Assembly: GCF_026210795.1 (NCBI RefSeq)
Contig: NC_089432.1
Coordinates: 5,084,001-5,148,000 of the forward strand
Direction: 5' to 3'
Length of the DNA stretch: 64,000 bases
From: Rhizophagus irregularis
Taxonomy: Eukaryota > Glomeromycota > Glomeromycetes > Glomerales > Glomeraceae
The notes under the pieces were generated by a model. It was not told the origin of the DNA. It did no database searches and was given only the letters and a program-made list of their open reading frames with translations. The first letter of the stretch is position 1, and each line of letters begins with the position of its first letter. The translations under genes were made by a program, and so were the position numbers. Shown here piece by piece: positions 25,148-36,185 of this stretch.

Positions 25148-25435
25148 TGTTAATCGAATAATCACATGACCAGTGATCATGTTACGAATGTTACGAATGT
25201 TACGAATGTTGCAAATGTTACGAATGTTTAATATGTTTAACATGTTAAACATATGCAACATATTAAATATATAACACATATTTAACATATTACATTTGTT
25301 AAATATATAGCATTTATTTAATATTCTTAACATGATTAGCATAGAATTTATTGTTATAAATACATGCGTTCTAAATCAATGTAATAATAGATAATTCTGT
25401 TATATTTTAATAAAAAGCATTTATTAAATAAATTA

Positions 25436-27744
25436 CATCAGGAAGTCACGGGAAAAATATTCATCAAATGTACATCGGTCACTTGATGTACATCATAAAG
25501 AAACGCTGAACATCGGACCCTGCAATGTACTACTGATGTCACAACATTTGATGTTCATCGCCAAATTAAAGATGTTCATCACCTGTACATTACGATTAAT
25601 TAACACATTTATTAATGATATTAAAATACATGCGTTATTTATTATTATACTATCATTATACTATACAAATGTATTATTAACTAATTAATATAATATCTAT
25701 GGCTATTTTAAATCTATATAATATGTTAAATACTAGATAAAAATTGATTTCCAAAATAAACCTATAAAGAAAAAAATGAAAATGTTAATAAAACTTTTCG
25801 TTAAAAATAAAAAAAAGTAAAATTCGAAGGGATATATATACCTTCGAAATAGGATCCAGTCGCGTCTTGGACCTACAAAAGAAAAAAAAATGAAACCGTT
25901 AGTAAAAACGTTTCGTTAGAAAAAATAAAAATTTGAAGGTACTGTATATACCTTCGAAATTCCATATAACTGAGTGATCCCAGATCCTACAAAAAAAAAG
26001 CAAACAAAAAACGTTAGTTTACGTTTCTAAAAGAAAAATAAAAAAATCCAAGTTTCGAAGTGAATTGAAATCTTCGAAACTTACCAATCCGTTAAGATTC
26101 GTCTTCTTTTTCCGTTCTTCAGAAACCCACCCAAGATCTAAAAGAAGAAAAAGAATTAGAAATAACAAAAAAAATTAAAAAAATTAAAGATTCGTATTGT
26201 CCTTACGAATCTTTGGGTTTTCTGTTCTTCAGAAGCCCACCCAAAACCTAAAAATCAAAGAAAAGAACGGTTAGAAACCGTTCATAATAATAAAATAAAT
26301 AAAAATAAACCAAAGATTCGTACTTACGAATTTTGGTTTTTTCCATTTTTCAGAAGACACCCGAGAAACCCAAAACCTAAAAATAAAATAAAAAGAACGG
26401 TTAGAACCATTCATAGTATTAAAAAAAATAAATCTAAGGTTCGTAATATAATACTTACGAACCTTAGTTCTCCATTTTCCGTTCTTCAGAAGACCACCCG
26501 ATGGAACCTATAAAAAATAAAATAAAAAGAACAGTTAGAACCGTTCATAGTATTAAAAAAATAAATCTAAGGTTCGTAATATAATGCTTACGAACTTTAG
26601 TTTTTTGTTTTCCGTTCTTCGGAAGATCACCTGACAGAACTTATAAAAAATAAAATAAAAAGAACGGTTAGAACCGTCCATAGTATTAAAGAAATAAATC
26701 TAAGATTCGTAACTGAATATAATACTTACGAACCTTAGTTCTCCATTTTCCATTCTTCGGAAGCCCTTTCGAGACACCGAACCTATAAAAAAAAGAAAGG
26801 AACGGTTAGTAAACCGTTTCATAATAATAAAAAAAATAAAAAAAAACCAAGATTCTTACGAATCTTGGTTCCTCTTTGCGAAATCCCCTTCCACCATCCC
26901 CCTTTCCCAGTTTTTTACCTTAAAGTCTGGTTTCGTGAACAAGCTGGCGTCCTACAAAAAAAAAACAATGAAAAAGAAACGTTAGATCGTTTCTTAAATT
27001 AAAAATAACAAAAAATCTTCCACTTTCCAGTTTCTTACTACCTTAAAGTCTGGTTTCATAGTATTCAAGCCAGCGTCCCCCTAGTAAACGTCCTACAAAA
27101 AATAAAATAATAAAGAGAAACGTTAGTTCGTTTCTTAAATTAAAAATAACAAAAAATCTTCCCCTTTTCAGTTTCTTACTACCTTAAAGTCCGGTTTCAT
27201 AGTATTCAAGCCGGCGTCCCCCTAGTAAACGTCCTACAAAAAATAAAATAATGAAAAGAAACGAAAAAAAAAGATAAAATTAAAAAAAAAATAAAAAAAA
27301 AATAAATTAAAAAAAAGTAACGAAACTTACAGGTGTGAGAAAAAGAAGAGAACGAAAGGGAAGTGAAGGACGAAAGGAAAGGGAAGGATATAGGAGAAGG
27401 ACGAAAGGACAAGGGGACGAAGGGAAGTGAAAGAAAGGGAAAAAAAAAGTTTAAAGTTTTTTATTAGACTTTTTTTTATCAAAAAAAAGATCGATCGGCA
27501 AACTGATCACATGATACCGATCAATACTAACTGAAATTTACTAGTTAGTAATTATATTTTTATTATAGCAAAGATATGTACATTGAATATTTATTATTAA
27601 ATGCTGCACATCATGATAAAAATTTCATTGATGATGTTCATTAATGTTAAATATTACTTGTACATTAAAAAGAATGAATATTGCAATGTACATGATTTGC
27701 ATAAATGTATATGTAATGTACATTTTTTTCGTAACTTCCTGATG
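25436..27744. mobile_element. 2.3 kb TIR element with TA target duplication, in the 5' LTR
   Basis: Comparison with the uninterrupted 3' LTR defines the insertion exactly. Flanking bases are TA on both sides (25434-25435 and 27745-27746), and the empty site has one TA. The ends are inverted repeats CATCAGGAAGTCACG and, from the right end, CATCAGGAAGTTACG (14 of 15 match). A TA duplication is typical of the Tc1/mariner (IS630) superfamily. Subterminal parts are rich in GTACAT/ATGTAC words. There is no transposase ORF; the centre is a hairpin-repeat array. It is a non-autonomous element that inserted after the retrotransposon. Confidence 0.85.
25780..27240 (+). repeat. Array of about a dozen diverged units, each with two hairpins
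   Basis: Units of about 110-150 bp start with CCTACAAAA-like words (for example near 25870, 25988, 26508, 26780, 26952, 27092 and 27232). Each holds a short inverted repeat around GTTAG, such as GAACGGTTAGAACCGTTC or GAAACGTTAGTTCGTTTC. Most hold a second one, such as CCAAGATTCTTACGAATCTTGG at 26854-26875 or arms of CTAAGGTTCG with CGAACCTTAG. Arms differ between units but mostly stay complementary. No reading frame is preserved, so selection or copying acts on structure, not on protein. Confidence 0.75.
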
Positions 27745-28030
27745 TATCTCATTGTTTATTTTATAGTTTGTTATATTTGTGAGTCAGTATTTGCGTCTGA
27801 GTGTATATGCCCGTGTGCAATACCGTATTCGCATTTGACTGAAATTTCATTTTATTTTATTGTGTAACCTTCGTAAATCGATCGACAGTGATACATTTAC
27901 TAATAATTTCATATAGTTTATTTCACTTTGCGTTCATTAACATTATTTAATATTTATTTTATTCATAATCCTTCTGCTTACCATACACCCATACGCTTAT
28001 TTTTATAAGCATACAAGAACTGGCATAACA

Positions 28031-28050
28031 AATTGGTGCCTTCTGCCAGA
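28031..28050 (+). promoter_or_regulatory. Putative primer-binding site of the retrotransposon
   Basis: Directly after the 5' LTR the sequence reads AATTGGTGCCTTCTGCCAGA. TGGTGCC is complementary to a tRNA 3' end carrying CCA, as expected for minus-strand priming. I cannot name the tRNA from the sequence alone. Confidence 0.6.
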
Positions 28051-28627
28051 ATCCCGATTTCCCATTATTTTAGTCCCCTTTTATGTTCTAAAACCATTTC
28101 AATCGCAATGATATACACGACGCTATACATAGACAATTAGGGCTAAATAACATAACCACTTATCATCGTGATCTATCGTGTAATAATTGTTACCCATCTG
28201 AGATCCCCTTAACCCCACTTTTCAACACTTTTTGGATTGGATTTCTTCTAATTATCCAGTTATAGAATATACCCGATACACTCAACAATACTTTGAAGAG
28301 GTTGCTTATTCAATCACTAACGCGGATATTGACAACGCCATACATAACCTATTGTTCAGTATCCGATACACTGATATAGAACCAATAGATTATACCCTTT
28401 TGCGTCATGATCTTATTAACGCCTATAATCTAACCAACAGTTTTTAGCAGGATCCTAACGAAGTCCTTTATCAAGTCAGTGAGACTACTACCTCACCAGA
28501 ACCTGAAGCTTTAAGTGATACAACATCAGAGAATTCTGAGGAAGAAATTCCCCATTTACATATTCCACTACCACCTATTTACAACACACCGAATAACCCA
28601 GCTCCAGTAATTCCACTGGTAATTAAT

Positions 28628-29695
28628 ATGGCCCAACCTAACCAGCAGGACTTTCAGCAATTACGAGCGGCAATCACAGCATTAACCCAGGTATTGCCGA
28701 ATACCAACAATGCTTTGGTCGGGAATACACAGGCCATTGCCAACCCGCCAAGACGAGGAGGAAAGGTGGCTGAACTGCCATCATTCTATGGAAGCAATCA
28801 GGACCCGGTCGCATGGTTCGAGGATTTTACTAGAGCTTGCAATGCTAATGGTATAGCAAATGGCCGTAAATTGGAAGTAGTGCCGGCCTATCTTAAGGGC
28901 GCTGCTTCTACATGGTGGAATGCTAATCAGGCGTTACCAAACAATAACCCTAATAAGATCACCGTGTGGACCGGCAATAATAACAATACCGATTTTATCC
29001 AGAATTTCCCAGCGGCTTTTAGGACTCAAACCCTAGTCAAAATCTGGACCACAGAACTAAAACAAAGGCGACAACAACCTGGCAAGGATGTAAATACCTA
29101 CGCCGCCGCCTTACAAGAACTATACCGAAGGGTAGAGACGAATGCTTTCGCCTATCTCGAAGCAATCAAGGCTTGGAAATTTGTAAACGGTCTATTGCCT
29201 GACCTATATGTCACCGTTAAGCCTCACAATGAACAAACATGGAATGGCGCGGTGGATAGAGCTAAAGCGTATGAGTTAACGCATAAGGATCAAGGCGCTG
29301 TCAGCGCATACCTCAATAAATTTACGCCGATGACAACTACTGACCATACCGGCGATTTACTTAAGGCCATCCAGGATTTATCTAAACAAGTGCAGTCGAT
29401 AGGTAATGGATATAGAGGCTATCGGAATAATAATAGTTTCCGAAATGCCAACCAGCAAACGGTCCAAACAACACAAGGTAGACCGAATCAGGTCGTATGT
29501 TATTCATGTGGAGAACCGGGACATATATCTAGGACTTGTCCGAATAGAAATAATGTTGCTGGACGTCCCAATAATATTCCGAGAAATAATAATACCCCAC
29601 AACCAACAAATACAAATGACCAACTTGCGCAGATACAACAATTGCTGGCCCAATTGGTATCGCAAGAAAGTACCGAAGACCAGCATTTAAACTAG
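28628..29695 (+). CDS. gag: Retrotransposon Gag with CCHC zinc knuckle
   Basis: A 355-residue ORF. The ATG at 28628 has a good context (AATATGGCC). Residues 43-220 form the retrotransposon-gag capsid region (GGKVAELPSFYGSNQDPVAWF, then WWNAN and LQELYRRVE). A CX2CX4HX4C zinc knuckle, CYSCGEPGHISRTC, is at residues 291-304. The C-terminus is Asn/Gln-rich. Upstream in the same frame, codons from 28232 are open except for one TAG at 28445-28447, so an older, longer leader may have existed. The stop at 29693-29695 follows a TTTAAAC heptamer and pol is open in the -1 frame. Gag packages element RNA in virus-like particles. This is one of the few intact ORFs of the element. Confidence 0.92.
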   Translation: MAQPNQQDFQQLRAAITALTQVLPNTNNALVGNTQAIANPPRRGGKVAELPSFYGSNQDPVAWFEDFTRACNANGIANGRKLEVVPAYLKGAASTWWNANQALPNNNPNKITVWTGNNNNTDFIQNFPAAFRTQTLVKIWTTELKQRRQQPGKDVNTYAAALQELYRRVETNAFAYLEAIKAWKFVNGLLPDLYVTVKPHNEQTWNGAVDRAKAYELTHKDQGAVSAYLNKFTPMTTTDHTGDLLKAIQDLSKQVQSIGNGYRGYRNNNSFRNANQQTVQTTQGRPNQVVCYSCGEPGHISRTCPNRNNVAGRPNNIPRNNNTPQPTNTNDQLAQIQQLLAQLVSQESTEDQHLN

Positions 29696-29744
29696 GAGGC
29701 GTACCTCAGGAGGGTGAGCGTACACGCCAGACAACAATTCCCTC
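29686..29744 (+). promoter_or_regulatory. Predicted -1 ribosomal frameshift signal between gag and pol
   Basis: In gag frame the bases read T TTA AAC at 29686-29692, a canonical X XXY YYZ slippery heptamer, directly followed by the gag TAG. After five bases a stem can form: 29698-29708 pairs with 29715-29728 (GGC/GCC, GTAC/GTAC, CTCA/TGAG, with two small bulges) around the loop GGAGGG. GAGGG of that loop (29710-29714) is complementary to CCCTC at 29740-29744, which would give an H-type pseudoknot with an A-rich connecting loop. The -1 frame is open through this site into protease. The frameshifting itself is inferred. Confidence 0.75.
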
Positions 29745-29748
29745 GAAT

Positions 29749-30909
29749 TTGACGCTATTGGAAACATATCCCGCTACAAGAACTACCCGAAGTAAATCTA
29801 GACTTGATCTGACTATTGGAACCGTAAAGGATAAACCTCCGGAAGAAGAGATAATAGTACGAACCATACAAAGCTCTGGTAAATCTAAACAACCAATAAG
29901 GTCAACTGGAGTAAAGAAAGTCGAACCTAAGAAGGTGGTCAAAAAGAAGTCTGCCGCAGTAGCCCCAATTTACAAAATGATAGAACCATATACGCCGCAG
30001 CAGTTCTTTGATCAAAAGGCCGATATTACGAATGGCCAGTTGCTGGCAATGAACCCAAAGTTCAGCTTAACAGTGGCCAAACAGCTAAGAAAACCGGTTG
30101 TTAGGACAAAAACTGAAGAACAAGATAAAAAACTGGTTAAGAAAGATGATGAAATTCTGAATAATGGAAATGTTTCTGAAGTTGAAAATCTCATGCAGGT
30201 GGCTAATACCGCCGGACCGAATGATGATCGAACTTCGGCATTATATTGTGAAGCCTCGATTAAACACATAAGATTCCCGCTGATCGTTGATTCTGGATCG
30301 GCTGGAAGTATTATTTCCTTATCATTATTGAAAGATTTAGATATGGAAATAACGAAAGCCTCAAAAACTATTATGGTGAATGTAAATGGAGAGCGTCGAC
30401 GACCATTGGGCGCTGTAACTGACATACCGTTGAAGATACATGAATGCATCATTCCGGTGGATGCCATTGTTACCGATGCTAATTCATATTCTGCTATAGT
30501 CAGAAATGATTGGCTGCGTAAGACCAAGGCCGTTCTGGACTATAACAACAATCGGATGACCATCAAGTGGAAAGATCAGGTTTTAGAAGTGACCACCGAA
30601 TGTAGAGAAATGCCCCACCACATAACTAGCATCGAGATACCGAATATAGAAGCCGAAGAAGAGGTTGAGGATGAATCCGAAAAGGAAGTTGATGAAGAAG
30701 CCGTAGAAGAATCGGAAGAAGAATATGAAAGTGACGACGAGGAGACACAAGAGCAGCTATTCTGTAACGCCGGATATATTACTCAGGAAAAGGTGCAAGA
30801 AATCGAAGAAGAATTAAAAGAAGGAAATTTCGTCAGTAATGAATATTACTACCAGTATGAAGAAATTGAAAAAGGAAAATTTTATACCAGAAAATTGGAC
30901 GAAGAATAA
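29749..30909 (+). CDS. pol: Retrotransposon Pol, protease part
   Basis: This ORF is in the -1 frame relative to gag. It is open from the slippery site at 29686, so it is probably made as a Gag-Pol fusion rather than from its own start. A Lys-rich linker (residues 50-140 from 29749) precedes the retropepsin core. DSGSAGSIIS at residues 181-190 has the catalytic Asp in a D-S/T-G triad, followed by hydrophobic strands typical of the fold. The segment after that is very acidic (many Glu/Asp). The frame ends at TAA 30907-30909, within what should be the link to reverse transcriptase. The TAA is probably a secondary nonsense change because the -1 pol frame clearly continues (RKFDDFMERY follows). 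Confidence 0.85.
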   Translation: MTLLETYPATRTTRSKSRLDLTIGTVKDKPPEEEIIVRTIQSSGKSKQPIRSTGVKKVEPKKVVKKKSAAVAPIYKMIEPYTPQQFFDQKADITNGQLLAMNPKFSLTVAKQLRKPVVRTKTEEQDKKLVKKDDEILNNGNVSEVENLMQVANTAGPNDDRTSALYCEASIKHIRFPLIVDSGSAGSIISLSLLKDLDMEITKASKTIMVNVNGERRRPLGAVTDIPLKIHECIIPVDAIVTDANSYSAIVRNDWLRKTKAVLDYNNNRMTIKWKDQVLEVTTECREMPHHITSIEIPNIEAEEEVEDESEKEVDEEAVEESEEEYESDDEETQEQLFCNAGYITQEKVQEIEEELKEGNFVSNEYYYQYEEIEKGKFYTRKLDEE

Positions 30910-32282
30910 CATCGGAAATTCGATGATTTTATGGAACGATATCAGGATCTGTTTGCCTGGGATCCTAATGACTTCAGAAGAACATCGGTAGTTACACATA
31001 AAATCAATACCGGAGAAGCTACCCCGGTTGGACAAAGATTCTACTGAACATCTTATCAAAACCAGCTGTTCATAAAAGAAGAAATACAACGATTATTGAA
31101 CGCCGGTTTAATAACTCCATCAAAAAGTCAATGGACTTCACCAGTTGTAGTGGTGGAAAAAAAAACGGCAAGAAACGTCTTTGCGTGGATTATCAGAAGT
31201 TAAATCAAGTAACGAAACGAGACTGATATCCCTTGCCGAGAATCGATGACATGCTGGAAACGTTATCCGGATGTCAATGGTTTTCCTCCCTTGATCTTGC
31301 CAGCGGGTTTTGGCAGGTCAAACTTAGTCCGAAAGACAGGGAAAAATCGACGTTTATCACCCGTTTCGGAACCTACGAGTTTACGGTTATGCCATTCGGC
31401 CTATGTAATGCTCCCGCCACCTTCCAGCGCTTGATGGATACAGTATTATGGGACATATTGTGGCAATATGTTGTGGTGTACATAGACGATATTAACGTGG
31501 GCTCCAAGACGTTCGAAGAACACCTACAACATTTGGAACAGGTTTTTCTTCGATTAAAATTAGCCGGACTGAAGCTGAGTCCAGAAAAATGTTTCTTTTT
31601 TAAGGATGAAATCCCGTTTCTAGGACACGTTGTAAGCTGGAAGGGCATACAAACCGACCCTGAAAAATTAAAAACCATTAGGGAATTTCCCATACCAAGA
31701 GACTTGATGCAGTTGCGAGGATTTATCGCTCTAGCGTCTTATTATCGTAAATTTGTCAAAGGGTTTTCATCGATAGCCGAACCCTTGAATAGACTTTTAA
31801 AGAAAAACACCCCGTATATATGGAGTGACGAACAACATGATGCTTTTGAGAAGCTTAAAACATGTTTGATGACGCCTCCTATATTGGCTTACCCAAATTT
31901 CGAGAAGCCATTTATTCTTTATACAGACGCATCTACCTTCGCTTTAGGTGCAATTCTATCCCAGAAAGACGAAGACAAACGCGAATGCGTTATAGCATAC
32001 GCAAGTCACACTTTAAACAAGCATGAACGAAACTATAGTATAACAGAACTCGAGTGTCTTGCGGTAATTTGGTCAGTGAGACACTTTCACCAATATCTGC
32101 ATGGTCAGAAATTTACGGTGATTACGGACCACGCTGCGTTACGATATTTAATGAATTTATCGAATCCTGTTGGCAAACTCAAACGATGGTTAATGACTTT
32201 GAATGGCTATGAACTTGAGATAATAAACTGCCCCAGAAAACTTCACTCCAACGTCGATACATTAAGCCGAATAAGAACTTAA
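30910..32282 (+). pseudogene. pol: Retrotransposon Pol, reverse transcriptase and RNase H, broken
   Basis: After the TAA at 30907 the frame continues with an RT N-terminus, a TGA at 31045-31047 and a one-base loss in the A run 31157-31165. Another TGA follows at 31224-31226, then a long open frame from 31233 to 32282. That frame contains the RT palm: LDLASG with the first catalytic Asp, FGLCNAPATFQRLMD, and YIDD. The Ty3-type RNase H follows, with TDAS, TELECLA and TDHAAL, and ends at DTLSRIRT. All catalytic residues are readable, yet three stops and one frameshift prevent a full product from this copy. Confidence 0.9.
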
Positions 32283-32369: not shown

Positions 32370-34445
32370 ATGGATTTAAACACCTACTTCTCACTCATAC
32401 ACTTTTTGATGACACACTCAATGCCAACACACCTCGATACGCAGCAACATGCTTCTATTAAACGAAAATCAAGATATTTTATTATCTTGAATGATCAACT
32501 TTATAAAAAGAATAAAGTTAACCCCAATAGACCGATACGAGTTGCAAAAGAAAATGAAATAGAGGATATTCTATATCATATGCACTCAGATCCATTAGCA
32601 GGCCACTTTTCAATAGATGAAATGTATCGAAGGATAAAAATTTGATACTACTGGCCGCAAATGTTCAATGACGTTCGCCGATATGTGCGAACCTGTGATG
32701 AATGCCAACGAAGGGGCAAAAATCGCCGCAATGAACCTCTCCATCCGATAAAGGTCGGACAACCATTCGATAGACTAGGAATGGATATTGTCGGACCGTT
32801 GCCTAAGACGAAAAATGGCAACATGTATATTGTCGTTGCAACCGAATACCTGACCAAATGGCCGGAAGCCCGCGCAATTCCCAACGCTAAGGCATCATCA
32901 GTTGTCTCGTTTTTCTACGAAGATATTATATGCCGCCATGGATGCCCAAAAGAGCTATTAACCGACCGTGGGACGCATTTTGTAAACGAAATGCTAAACT
33001 CCTTATGCGAAAACCTTGGAGTTAAGCATAAATTGTCTACGGCGTATCACCCGCAGACTAACGGGTTGGTAGAGCTAGAGCTCTGAACAGGTCAGCCAAA
33101 TTCAGGTAACCTGACCTGACCTGACCTGAAATTCAGGTCAGGTATGAGATTTTTAAAAAAAATTCAGGTCAGGTATGAAGATTGACCTGACCTGTTGACC
33201 TGAAACTATTGATTCTACTATATAATAAAAGTGAGTTGCAGTATTGCGATTCACTTTTTTATATTGATTTTATATAATAATAGTGAGTTGCAGTATTGCG
33301 ATTCACTTTTTTATATAGATTCTATATAAAAAAAGTGAGTTGCGGTATTGCGATTCACTTTTTTATATAGAATTAATATAAAAATGTGAATTGCAATACT
33401 GCAACTCACTTTTTTTATACAAAATCAATATAAAAAAGTGAATTGCAGTATTGGGATTCACTTTTTTATATGATTTTAATATAAAAATGTTGAATCGCAA
33501 TATTTCAAGAAAAAACATTGCGAAAACGTTTTTTCATAATATTATATTAAAAAAATGTTTTGTAACGTTTTTTTTTTTGATATTTCAATAATAGCATTGT
33601 GAAAACATTTTTTTCATAATGTTATATTAAAAAAAACGTTTTGCAATATTTTTTTTCAATATTTTAATAAAAAACGTTGCAAAAACGTTTTTTTTCATAA
33701 TATTATATTAAAAAAAAAAAGGTTTGTACCGTTTTTTTTCAATACTTTAATAAAAATTTTTCAGGTTTCAGGTCAGGTCAGGTCAAACAGACAACCTGAT
33801 ATAACCTGACCTGACCTGACCTGAAAAAAAATTTCAGGTCAGGTTTATCAATTAACCTGACCTGACCTGACCCATTCGGAGCTCTAGGTAGAGCGCTTCA
33901 ACCGAACGTTATGTGAAGCCCTTGCCAAATATGCCAATACAAATAAAGACGATTGGGATTTGTACCTATCATCTGTTTTATTTGCATACAGGACGAAAAG
34001 CCATAGCACCACACGGCATGAACCTTTCTACTTGATGTATGGCCGTGATGCTGTGCTTCCAATAGAATTCGCTGTTTCCACTGCGCAAAGTAAATGCGCT
34101 GGGGAAAATTTCCAGGATGATCTCTTTAATCAAATTCACACCCTTACTGGAAAGGTGATAGTTGATCGCCTTGAAACACAAGATAATATATGCAAGGCGC
34201 AACAAAGGCAGAAAGAGCAACATGATGCAGGTCTTTCCGAAGTGCATTTTAAAATCGGAGACCTTGTGTTGCTATACCAAAGTCAACTAAGAGGCAAGCA
34301 AAAATTCCAAGAAAGATGGAAAGGCCCCTATTATGTGCATGAAATATTAGGAAATGGCGCATATAAGTTGCGCACAATTGAAGGAAAGATTTTAAAAGTT
34401 CCGGTGAATTCGGAACGGTTGAAATTGTATCACCAACGCATATAG
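32370..34445 (+). pseudogene. pol: Retrotransposon Pol, integrase, split by an 811 bp insertion
   Basis: First segment 32370-32642: the start of the HHCC zinc-binding domain (HMHSDPLAGHF), ending at TGA 32643-32645. Second segment 32661-33075: CDECQRR, which completes the HHCC domain, then the catalytic core with MDIVGP, TDRGTHF and YHPQTNG. At 33075 an 811 bp transposon interrupts the codon string. The coding text resumes at 33887 and continues to 34445. The C-terminal part holds a GPY/F-type module (WKGPYYVHEILGNGAYKL). The insertion plus its 8-bp duplication adds 819 bases, a multiple of three, but brings in a stop. All other parts of a Ty3/gypsy integrase are present. Confidence 0.9.
33076..33886. 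mobile_element. hAT-like non-autonomous element in the integrase, 811 bp
   Basis: Perfect 8-bp direct repeats GGTAGAGC flank the insert at 33068-33075 and 33887-33894, and removing one copy restores the integrase frame. The left end reads TAGAGCTCTGAACAGGTCA and the reverse complement of the right end reads TAGAGCTCCGAATGGGTCA. Both subterminal zones are packed with CAGGT/ACCTG words. The centre (33220-33490) has about six imperfect copies of a roughly 65 bp unit holding GAGTTGCAGTATTGCGATTC-like stretches, and then T-rich units around AAAACGTTTTT. No ORF. The 8-bp duplication points to hAT. Confidence 0.88.
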
Positions 34446-34659: not shown

Positions 34660-35127
34660 ATGGCCAAAATAAATGCTTATCAAAGAATCTTGGAAGATTT
34701 GCGACAATTACAACCAACCGAAATTGTGGCATATCCGCCACCTTATACGATTACCGCAGGCTTGGAAGAAAAATTTGATTTAATCAATGCTGCCATAGAA
34801 AGGTCCAAGCGCATTGATGACCGAATATTAATGCTAGCAAATGTCTACTATTTAGGACATTTTCTGGAAGTAGAAATTCGGGATAATACAAGACGCGGTC
34901 AATTTCTACAACAATTATCTATACATTTCCGGACGATTGCTATCCGAACTTATTATATATTTGAGGTCTCCGGAGTTGAACAGATTATGAGAACAACCCA
35001 TACAACCCCCACTATGATCCGGAAGCTCAGTACGGCAGAATATAAGGATTTGGTCTTTAAATCCATCGAAATTTTCAACGGGATTGAAAATCTGGGAGGG
35101 AGTGGTGTTAATCGAATAATCACATGA
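34660..35127 (+). CDS. Extra ORF between pol and the 3' LTR, function unknown
   Basis: An intact 155-codon ORF in the position where some Ty3/gypsy elements carry an env-like or accessory gene. It follows a T-rich, low-complexity stretch at 34500-34650, and its last seven codons lie inside the 3' LTR. The protein starts MAKINAYQRILEDLRQLQPT and is predicted mainly alpha-helical. It has a moderately basic centre (ERSKRIDDRILM, RDNTRRGQFLQQL) and no transmembrane segment, signal peptide or zinc motif. I do not recognise it. Its intact frame, beside a pol full of stops, makes it worth attention. Confidence 0.6.
   Translation: MAKINAYQRILEDLRQLQPTEIVAYPPPYTITAGLEEKFDLINAAIERSKRIDDRILMLANVYYLGHFLEVEIRDNTRRGQFLQQLSIHFRTIAIRTYYIFEVSGVEQIMRTTHTTPTMIRKLSTAEYKDLVFKSIEIFNGIENLGGSGVNRIIT
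35094..35105 (+). promoter_or_regulatory. Putative polypurine tract
   Basis: GGGAGGGAGTGG lies immediately before the 3' LTR start TGTTAATCG. This is the position and composition expected of the plus-strand primer. It lies inside the extra ORF. Confidence 0.6.
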
Positions 35128-35679
35128 CCGGCGATCATGTTACGAATGTTACGAATGTTACGAATGTTGCAAATGTTACGAATGTTTAATATGTTTAACA
35201 TGTTAAACATATGCAACATATTAAATATATAACACATATTTAACATATTACATTTGTTAAATATATAGCATTTATTTAATATTCTTAACATGATTAGCAT
35301 AGAATTTATTGTTATAAATACATGCGTTCTAAATCAATGTAATAATAGATAATTCTGTTATATTTTAATAAAAAGCATTTATTAAATAAATTATCTCATT
35401 GTTTATTTTATAGTTTGTTATATTTGTGAGTCAGTATTTGCGTCTGAGTGTATATGCCCGTGTGTGCAATACCGTATTCACATTTGACTGAAATTTCATT
35501 TTATTTTATTGTGTAACCTTCGTAAATCGATCGACAGTGATACATTTACTAATAATTTCATATAGTTTATTTCACTTTGCGTTCATTAACATTATTTAAT
35601 ATTTATTTTATTCATAATCCTTCTGCTTACCATACACCCATACGCTTATTTTTATAAGCATACAAGAACTGGCATAACA
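35106..35679 (+). repeat. 3' LTR (574 bp)
   Basis: It starts TGTTAATCG and ends GGCATAACA. It matches the two halves of the 5' LTR with three substitutions and a GT indel. It contains the uninterrupted site (AAATTATCTC) that proves the 2.3 kb insertion in the 5' LTR. All three substitutions are CpG-type transitions. Confidence 0.92.
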
Positions 35680-36185
35680 ATACGACGTGGAATAACTTTT
35701 TGTGAGGAAAAAAAATGCTGAAGACCTTTGCTAATTTGATATTTGGCGTTCGGTAGTGCGCTTGTGGAATGATACTTAATAGGGGTAGTTGACATGAGAT
35801 AATCATTTGTGTGTATCTGTAAATGAAGTTGATTGGTGTCCAAATGGTGATCAACAATCTCAAAAAAGAAACTTTTTGAATGTCTAAATTCGTAAATCTT
35901 GTTATAACCGGCTTTGTGTATTCTGGTCACGTGAAATTTTTTAAAAGAAATGAGAAAAGAATTATCGACATTAGGTGGAGTCGTTGTTGAAGAAATGGGA
36001 GATATAGAAGAAAAATCTTTTAATGGATAACCATCATTATTATTATATGGAGAAACTTGAGAATCAATGTCTGTAGTTGAATAAGGAGAACTATCTTGTG
36101 AAAATGAAGGGTCATCTATACGAATAAACGCGTGTGTTGATGAAGATGAAGACCAGTCTATTACTATAGAATTTGAAGAAGTCAT
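35680..36185 (-). pseudogene. Unrecognised gene G2, 5' part, split by the retrotransposon
   Basis: N-terminal part of G2, starting at the ATG at 36185 and open for 168 codons up to the retrotransposon edge. It begins with a Ser/Asp/Pro-rich, probably disordered leader containing FIRIDDPSF (compare FLRIDDY in G1). Then comes FKKFHVTRIHKAGYNKIYEF, which matches the G1 segment around RAGYNKIYEIRR. The last codons before the insertion encode KVIPRRI. Upstream boxes CCCTTGGGTGTGGGTA and GGGGAAAGAG are shared with G1, so the promoter was probably duplicated too. Confidence 0.65.

Follow-up and report, generated by a model that had tools for sequence, protein, structure and literature searches.

The retrotransposons Ty1-Ty4 of Saccharomyces cerevisiae use +1 frameshifting, and a 2003 survey discussed in the same account found the balance between +1 and -1 to be more even in fungi than in animals (PMC5009743). 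Tf1/sushi elements outside the fission yeasts are described as predominantly -1, and the grasshopper element of Pyricularia has been corrected to -1 (PMC10085805). In Verticillium, pol of VdLTRE2-4 is placed in the -1 frame (PMC3441728). A first-pass annotation of the locus described here had considered a -1 cassette notable given the +1 shift of Ty3. Ty3 does use +1, but this is not the fungal rule and Tf1/sushi elements are mostly -1 (PMC10085805); the surprise is therefore smaller than was claimed.

The locus lies in a 64-kb stretch of the Rhizophagus irregularis genome, the whole of which is referred to below as the window. Its gag/pol junction, in a Ty3/gypsy LTR retrotransposon, very probably represents a programmed -1 ribosomal frameshift cassette with an H-type pseudoknot. 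A ribosome finishing gag would pause at the knot, which is predicted to comprise a stem 1 of approximately 11 bp with bulges, a loop 1 of 1 nt, a stem 2 of 5 bp and a crossing loop of 11 nt. In a fraction of ribosomes, tRNA-Leu on TTA and tRNA-Asn on AAC would then re-pair one base upstream, on TTT AAA. Shifted ribosomes would read the -1 frame (CTA GGA ...) to yield Gag-Pol, while unshifted ribosomes would stop at TAG to yield Gag. Slippage of the tRNAs, its efficiency and the formation of the knot on the ribosome are steps that we infer from the DNA letters.

The element and its gag/pol junction

The element is a Ty3/gypsy (Metaviridae) LTR retrotransposon, as had been proposed at first pass. 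It extends from the LTR at 25148 to an LTR end near 35680 and possesses the Ty3/gypsy domain order of Gag (CCHC), protease, RT-RNase H and integrase (Table 1). The best match of its reverse transcriptase among solved chains is the Ty3 RT 4ol8 (E 2.4e-74). Three repeat blocks relate the LTRs: 25148-25440 with 35106-35398 (99% alike, 293 nt), 27745-27817 with 35392-35464 (100%, 73 nt) and 27813-28031 with 35462-35680 (100%, 219 nt). Pfam matches to six frames of the window included no chromodomain, and an SH3_Tf2-1 match at 33888-34442 was sub-threshold. The window copy itself looks disabled, since its gag opens only after an in-frame stop (415 codons, compared with 541-543 in four close copies) and its pol is closed at 30909. 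The pol piece 29692-30906 aligned to Rhizophagus irregularis proteins with up to 89% identity along all of it (P0001) and 91% along one half (P0022); proteins of R. diaphanus and R. clarus were less close (e.g. 74% and 68%). These matches identify the host as a Rhizophagus, very probably R. irregularis.

Two further features were observed within the element. The insert that splits the 5' LTR (25436-27744, approximately 2.3 kb) carries terminal inverted repeats (CATCAGGAAGT.../...ACTTCCTGATG), a duplicated TA and tandem repeats of 133 and 141 nt. It looks like a non-autonomous TA-target DNA transposon. In addition, five tandem copies of a unit of approximately 52 nt (GTGAGTTGCAGTATTGCGATTCACTTT...) occupy 33227-33504, 3' of the integrase core.

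Table 1. Coordinates of the retrotransposon and of its junction cassette, numbered from the first base of the window.
Feature	Position	Strand	Basis or remark
5' LTR, two parts	25148 to approximately 25435; 27745-28031 (whole 25148-28031)	+	split by an insert of about 2.3 kb; repeat blocks shared with the 3' LTR
gag frame, stop to stop	28448-29695	+	Retrotrans_gag and CCHC zinc knuckle; terminal TAG at 29693-29695
Slippery heptamer T TTA AAC, gag phase	29686-29692	+	sequence read; present in 44 of the 46 junctions examined
pol, -1 frame, reached by putative slippage	29692-30909	+	linker, then retroviral-type protease (RVP_2); frame shut at 30909 in the window copy
Spacer, 5 nt, including the gag stop codon	29693-29697	+	families A-I: TAG or TAA adjoins the heptamer, further bases variable
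Predicted pseudoknot stem 1	29698-29728	+	pairs 29698-29700/29726-29728, 29701-29704/29720-29723 and 29705-29708/29715-29718; bulges 29719 and 29724-29725; pair table and covariation counts
Loop 1, 1 nt	29709	+	
Predicted stem 2, 5' strand GAGGG (loop of stem 1)	29710-29714	+	pairing tally over 44 cassettes
Crossing-loop connector, 11 nt, A-rich, variable sequence	29729-29739	+	shorter by 3 nt in I and J (our own reading of the alignment)
Predicted stem 2, 3' strand CCCTC	29740-29744	+	all 8 of families A-H retain the CCC codon
Reverse transcriptase and RNase H	31227-32282	+	domain matches; nearest solved chain Ty3 RT 4ol8
Integrase, zinc-binding and core domains	32646-33086	+	domain matches
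3' LTR	35106-35680	+	repeat blocks

At the junction, TTTAAAC was seen in gag phase directly before the TAG, as the first-pass annotation had it, and T TTA AAC conforms to the X XXY YYZ form of a heptamer read in the upstream frame. The -1 frame is open across 29620-30909 and so overlaps gag. Beyond the gag stop, frame 0 remains open for 18 codons, +1 for 7 and -1 for 405. Since frame 0 and +1 close early, only -1 leads into pol, which confirms the earlier claim that pol is open in exactly this frame; a +1 shift of the Ty3 type fails here, the +1 frame being shut after 7 codons. The candidate structure begins 5 nt downstream of the heptamer. The layout of heptamer, stop-like triplet, GAGGG and CCCTC matched once in the window, at this junction, and in none of 100 dinucleotide shuffles.

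The bulged stem of 11 bp that had been proposed here (29698-29708 with 29715-29728) was present, but its inner register required a small correction, with 29719 and 29724-29725 bulged. The complementarity of the GAGGG loop to CCCTC, across an A-rich connector of 11 bases, was found as claimed. Folding of the single sequence was unremarkable (stem, z -1.56; entire structure, z -1.03). In the window sequence an alternative inner register, GGCGU:ACGCC, is near-equal in energy (-11.5 vs -11.4 kcal/mol) and a nested fold is also possible. It is comparison across copies that leads us to prefer the inner register 29701-29704:29720-29723 with 29705-29708:29715-29718.

Copies of the cassette and changes in stem 1

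Copies were sought in the same genome (146.7 Mb, 32 contigs). A set of 44 cassettes, a lower bound for the genome, was collected with a script that required the heptamer, and these fall into ten sequence families, lettered A-J by us (A 5, B 7, C 1, D 2, E 1, F 3, G 5, H 5, I 3, J 12); the copies are related, so that counts do not represent independent events. Left out before this count were duplicate readings of one place, L110 (no heptamer), and L097/L102, L093 and L094, whose sequenced stretches as read showed no junction. The genome also has Ty3/gypsy lineages with a single long frame (1453 or 1665 aa); these, and most other protease matches below 41% identity, lie outside the count. Ten of the 44 (L002, L004, L005, L006, L012, L013 and L079-L082) have long frames in the DNA read, gag running for 340 codons or more and pol, in -1, for 500 or more.

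The families were reached by different routes. A-F were found by DNA similarity to the junction of the window, with 67-77% identity for the relatives that are not of family A. Family G was first found through the heptamer pattern itself, and H through DNA similarity to G. Family I (44-46% identical in the protease) and the first two J copies (30-32%) were found by protein matches inside the protease, independently of the cassette; of these protease-found copies, 3 of 4 in family I and 2 of 2 in J carry the heptamer. The remaining J copies came from matches to a 205-residue pol piece of L100 starting at the cassette. The stop codon directly follows the heptamer in A-I and lies one codon later in J, where the spacer is approximately 7 nt by our own reading of the alignment.

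The motif was also searched genome-wide, where the pattern TTTAAACTAGGNGG gave 59 matches (control 11), of which only 11 had GGAGG, 47 GGTGG and 1 GGCGG. Of the GGTGG matches, 46 were discarded as one unrelated repeat (TAGGTGGCCAAC or a near variant) whose gag-side frame is open for just 12 codons; the remaining GGTGG match and the single GGCGG match were likewise discarded. Raw counts of the slip-site motif would have misled in this genome. The high-copy repeat concerned occurs at 46 genome places (e.g. L018, L020-L024) and bears TTTAAACTAGGTGGCCAAC or a near variant, a chance mimic of the slip-site pattern. The exact cassette pattern was found in no viral contigs and in no bacterial or archaeal genome contigs, collections from which records of near relatives are possibly absent. 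Protease-like matches of 25-28% identity with open frames of approximately 200 aa were seen at G000:C9:1644918-1645448 and at many similar places, in many copies; these may belong to another class of element or be protease frames that stand apart.

Other copies had been proposed as the test of the cassette, and it passed. The heptamer is present at 44 of the 46 junction places read, the exceptions being L110 (J) and L097/L102 (I), and changes in stem 1 are mostly compensated or re-registered. With single exceptions, stem 1 of families A-F reads GGC GUAC CUCA with UGAG n GUAC nn GCC. In family D an inner C-G has become U-A and the innermost pair is lost. In families G, H and I the middle helix shows U-A to C-G and C-G to U-G or U-A, and the inner helix is shifted by one base, with no bulge. 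Most copies of family J retain GCAC:GUGC and CUC:GAG.

These changes were assessed on an alignment of 29 of the 32 distinct cassettes (A3), L008, L014 and L109 being excluded for one-base deletions within the cassette. In the helix 29701-29704:29720-29723, 98.3% of 116 cells are paired, compared with 73.3% in the best slid register, and 13 cells are double-sided, compared with a shuffle mean of 5.2 +/- 1.7 (none of 500 shuffles as high). When all 29 rows are read in the A-F/J register, the paired share of the 232 cells is 87.9%, compared with 70.3% in the best slid register; for families G-I in their own register it is 96.1% of 77 cells, compared with 50.6%. Pairs altered on both sides numbered 2, 4 and 3 in the helix, 29-row and G-I sets, values equalled or exceeded by 258, 209 and 52 of 500 shuffles, and the number of further pair types was equalled or exceeded by 274, 425 and 130 of 500, respectively. 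Two of the five shuffle measures are thus unremarkable, and what stands out for stem 1 is the share of paired cells, the count of double-sided cells and the covariation score. By our own reading of the alignment, stem 1 appears to have undergone about five or six separate two-sided changes. RNAalifold returned stem 2 alone on 66 nt, and preferred a mixed stem or rival inner hairpin on 48 nt; in our view this mixed outcome reflects the presence of two registers and the inability of the program to represent a knot.

One Ty3/gypsy lineage with the same cassette (L100 1-615, minus strand; L101 330-950, plus strand) possesses a Nudix domain (PF00293, E 2.2e-10, above cutoff). Nudix is here the first Pol domain, ahead of the protease; the lineage has 20 genome matches, of which 13 junction places were read. 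The combination of Nudix and RVP_2 is likewise seen in proteins from R. irregularis records and from JGI. Among the papers listed for Nudix together with retrotransposons, none was of this kind by title or abstract start.

Coding constraint, stem 2 and competing explanations

Synonymous change around the slip site was compared using one copy per family A-F (L005 for A); the pairwise comparisons share ancestry and no p-value is claimed. Synonymous third-base differences amount to 26/186 in pol codons 1-18 and 1298/2338 in later pol codons, and a sliding 17-codon window has its minimum, out of 232 positions, at pol codon 1. Extended to G and H, the same comparison gives 52/282 and 1862/3313. On the gag side, third bases differ by 27-64% per ten columns in the 80 columns before the last seven; in those last seven, 9/51 differ, and in TTA AAC 0/30. 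Beyond the cassette, in pol codons 19-46, pN is 0.09-0.25 and pS 0.53-0.98 in all 15 pairs of A-F. These codons precede the first ATG in five of the six families, the exception being D, whose ATG at codon 35 falls inside the tested stretch. In most families, protein constraint acts on the -1 frame before the first ATG is reached.

This last result bears on the suggestion that pol has its own start, through internal initiation, reinitiation or a second mRNA. An in-frame ATG does exist downstream, at pol codon 96 in family A. However, the first pol-frame ATG lies at codons 35-98 in eight families (approximately 92-98 in A, B, C and E; D 35, F 55, G 76, H 64), the stretch of that frame running from the upstream stop to the slip site has no ATG, and the protein constraint ahead of the first ATG disfavours internal initiation; we regard such a start as extremely unlikely. 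Splicing would require an intron that removes the end of gag and joins gag in frame to pol, with the heptamer incidental. Seven of eight public proteins (P0001, P0006, P0012, P0022, P0045, P0046 and P0048) do join gag-side residues directly to the pol frame, which points to introns in their gene models. Furthermore, P0001, P0006, P0022 and P0048 share an acceptor side (...TIAG...) located a little 5' of the heptamer, which for family A speaks in favour of splicing. The gag-side joins differ, however, and P0012, P0045 and P0046 differ on the pol side as well. In copies of B, D and E the shared acceptor would be unusable, because the pol frame opens just 4-5 codons 5' of the heptamer. An intron would also leave the invariant heptamer, the compensated stem and the suppressed synonymous change unexplained, and there is a precedent for an intron wrongly annotated over a frameshift, in Cryptococcus Tcn1 (PMC10085805). 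The pol-side join shared by four public proteins makes splicing slightly more likely, and the programmed shift slightly less so, than they would otherwise be; we rate splicing as quite improbable, and the programmed -1 shift with a pseudoknot as very probable. The joins in the public Rhizophagus proteins are probably annotation artefacts, introns having been predicted because of the frameshift, and the cassette would offer an explanation for why those joins differ.

The remaining alternatives accept the constraint and concern what it serves. Over the 44 cassettes (L008, L014 and L109 kept, with offsets set by hand), GAGGG:CCCTC is wholly Watson-Crick in 31, includes G-U in 7 and is broken in 6. 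Were the -1 shift stimulated by a stem-loop alone or by a switching fold, with GAGGG:CCCTC forming no working stem 2, several observations would be accommodated: no stem 2 pair is changed on both sides in 11 sequences, the loop can weakly pair with the 5' arm instead, and two of the broken copies (L104 and L105) lie in open frames of 272 and 264 aa with no inner stops. The other four are in shorter or interrupted frames, with pol open for 24-61 codons in the DNA read of L091, L014 and L109 and two inner stops in L108. Against the stem-loop stand the pairing in 38 of 44 (G-U counted) and the codons used, CCC being retained in all eight families A-H, and GAG being kept as well, although elsewhere in pol they make up 12.6% of Pro and 23.4% of Glu codons, respectively. 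The three copies of family I, counted among the seven with G-U, are pairable as GGAGG:CCTCT in a shifted register of our choosing. The search for compensatory changes among genome copies, advised at first pass, was thus borne out for stem 1 and not for stem 2, for which the support is invariance and codon choice, not covariation; a stem-loop acting alone nonetheless seems unlikely to us. A different RNA role (packaging or dimerisation), or the junction peptide by itself, might also account for the constraint, and the peptide is partly conserved (G-V/A-P/S-x-E/G-G). However, in codons 3-18 of A-F third positions differ in 0/99 cases where paired in the pseudoknot model and in 26/70 where unpaired, and the constrained block begins at the heptamer, the upstream gag codons being more variable. 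We consider such a role very improbable.

Relation to described frameshift signals

The Glomeromycotina signal and its covariation record appear to be unreported. Among the matches listed in open-access literature on Rhizophagus retrotransposons and frameshifting, and on fungal Ty3/gypsy slippery sites, no report of the signal was found by title or abstract start, and the word 'frameshift' occurs nowhere in the main text of a paper on R. irregularis transposable elements (PMC11075540). The cassette represents a very probable fungal LTR-retrotransposon frameshift signal with a compensated stem 1 and frozen paired third positions, in arbuscular mycorrhizal fungi. On balance we favour the view that one ancestral frameshift pseudoknot has been kept through Ty3/gypsy diversification in Glomeromycotina, down to approximately 30% protease identity, with its stem rebuilt by double changes, bulge loss and a register shift, and that it also serves a lineage in which a Nudix hydrolase is delivered by the frameshift as the first Pol domain. 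If true, the ten families would form a natural series of one frameshift element within a single genome, on which frameshift-pseudoknot evolution could be measured at constant function. The re-registered stem and the Nudix-bearing related lineage are the most interesting extensions.

The mechanism and the superfamily are already known, and the cassette is a well-documented further example. Saccharomyces Ty3 belongs to the same superfamily, and its RT is nearest to that of the window element, but Ty3 shifts +1, at GCG_AGU_U (PMC5009743). The sites of the Tf1/sushi group (grasshopper, VdLTRE2-4) share with the present junction an LTR retrotransposon setting, pol in -1 relative to gag and Gag-Pol made, here very probably, by a programmed shift; no pseudoknot is described for them in the relevant parts of PMC10085805 and PMC3441728. 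The closest likeness in layout is to the viral UUUAAAC sites with H-type pseudoknots of coronaviruses, arteriviruses and toroviruses, which use the same heptamer and in which, in the rows examined of PMC3835772, a spacer of 5, an S1 of 11 and an L1 of 1 are common. These signals serve RNA virus replicases and not a retroelement, and no homology is implied. The shortest S2 in those rows is 6, compared with 5 bp here, and the typical spacer given there is 6-9 nt, compared with 5. One torovirus row of the same source combines a spacer of 5, S1 of 11, S2 of 6, L1 of 1 and L2 of 11, and so has the same crossing loop of 11 as the Rhizophagus cassette.
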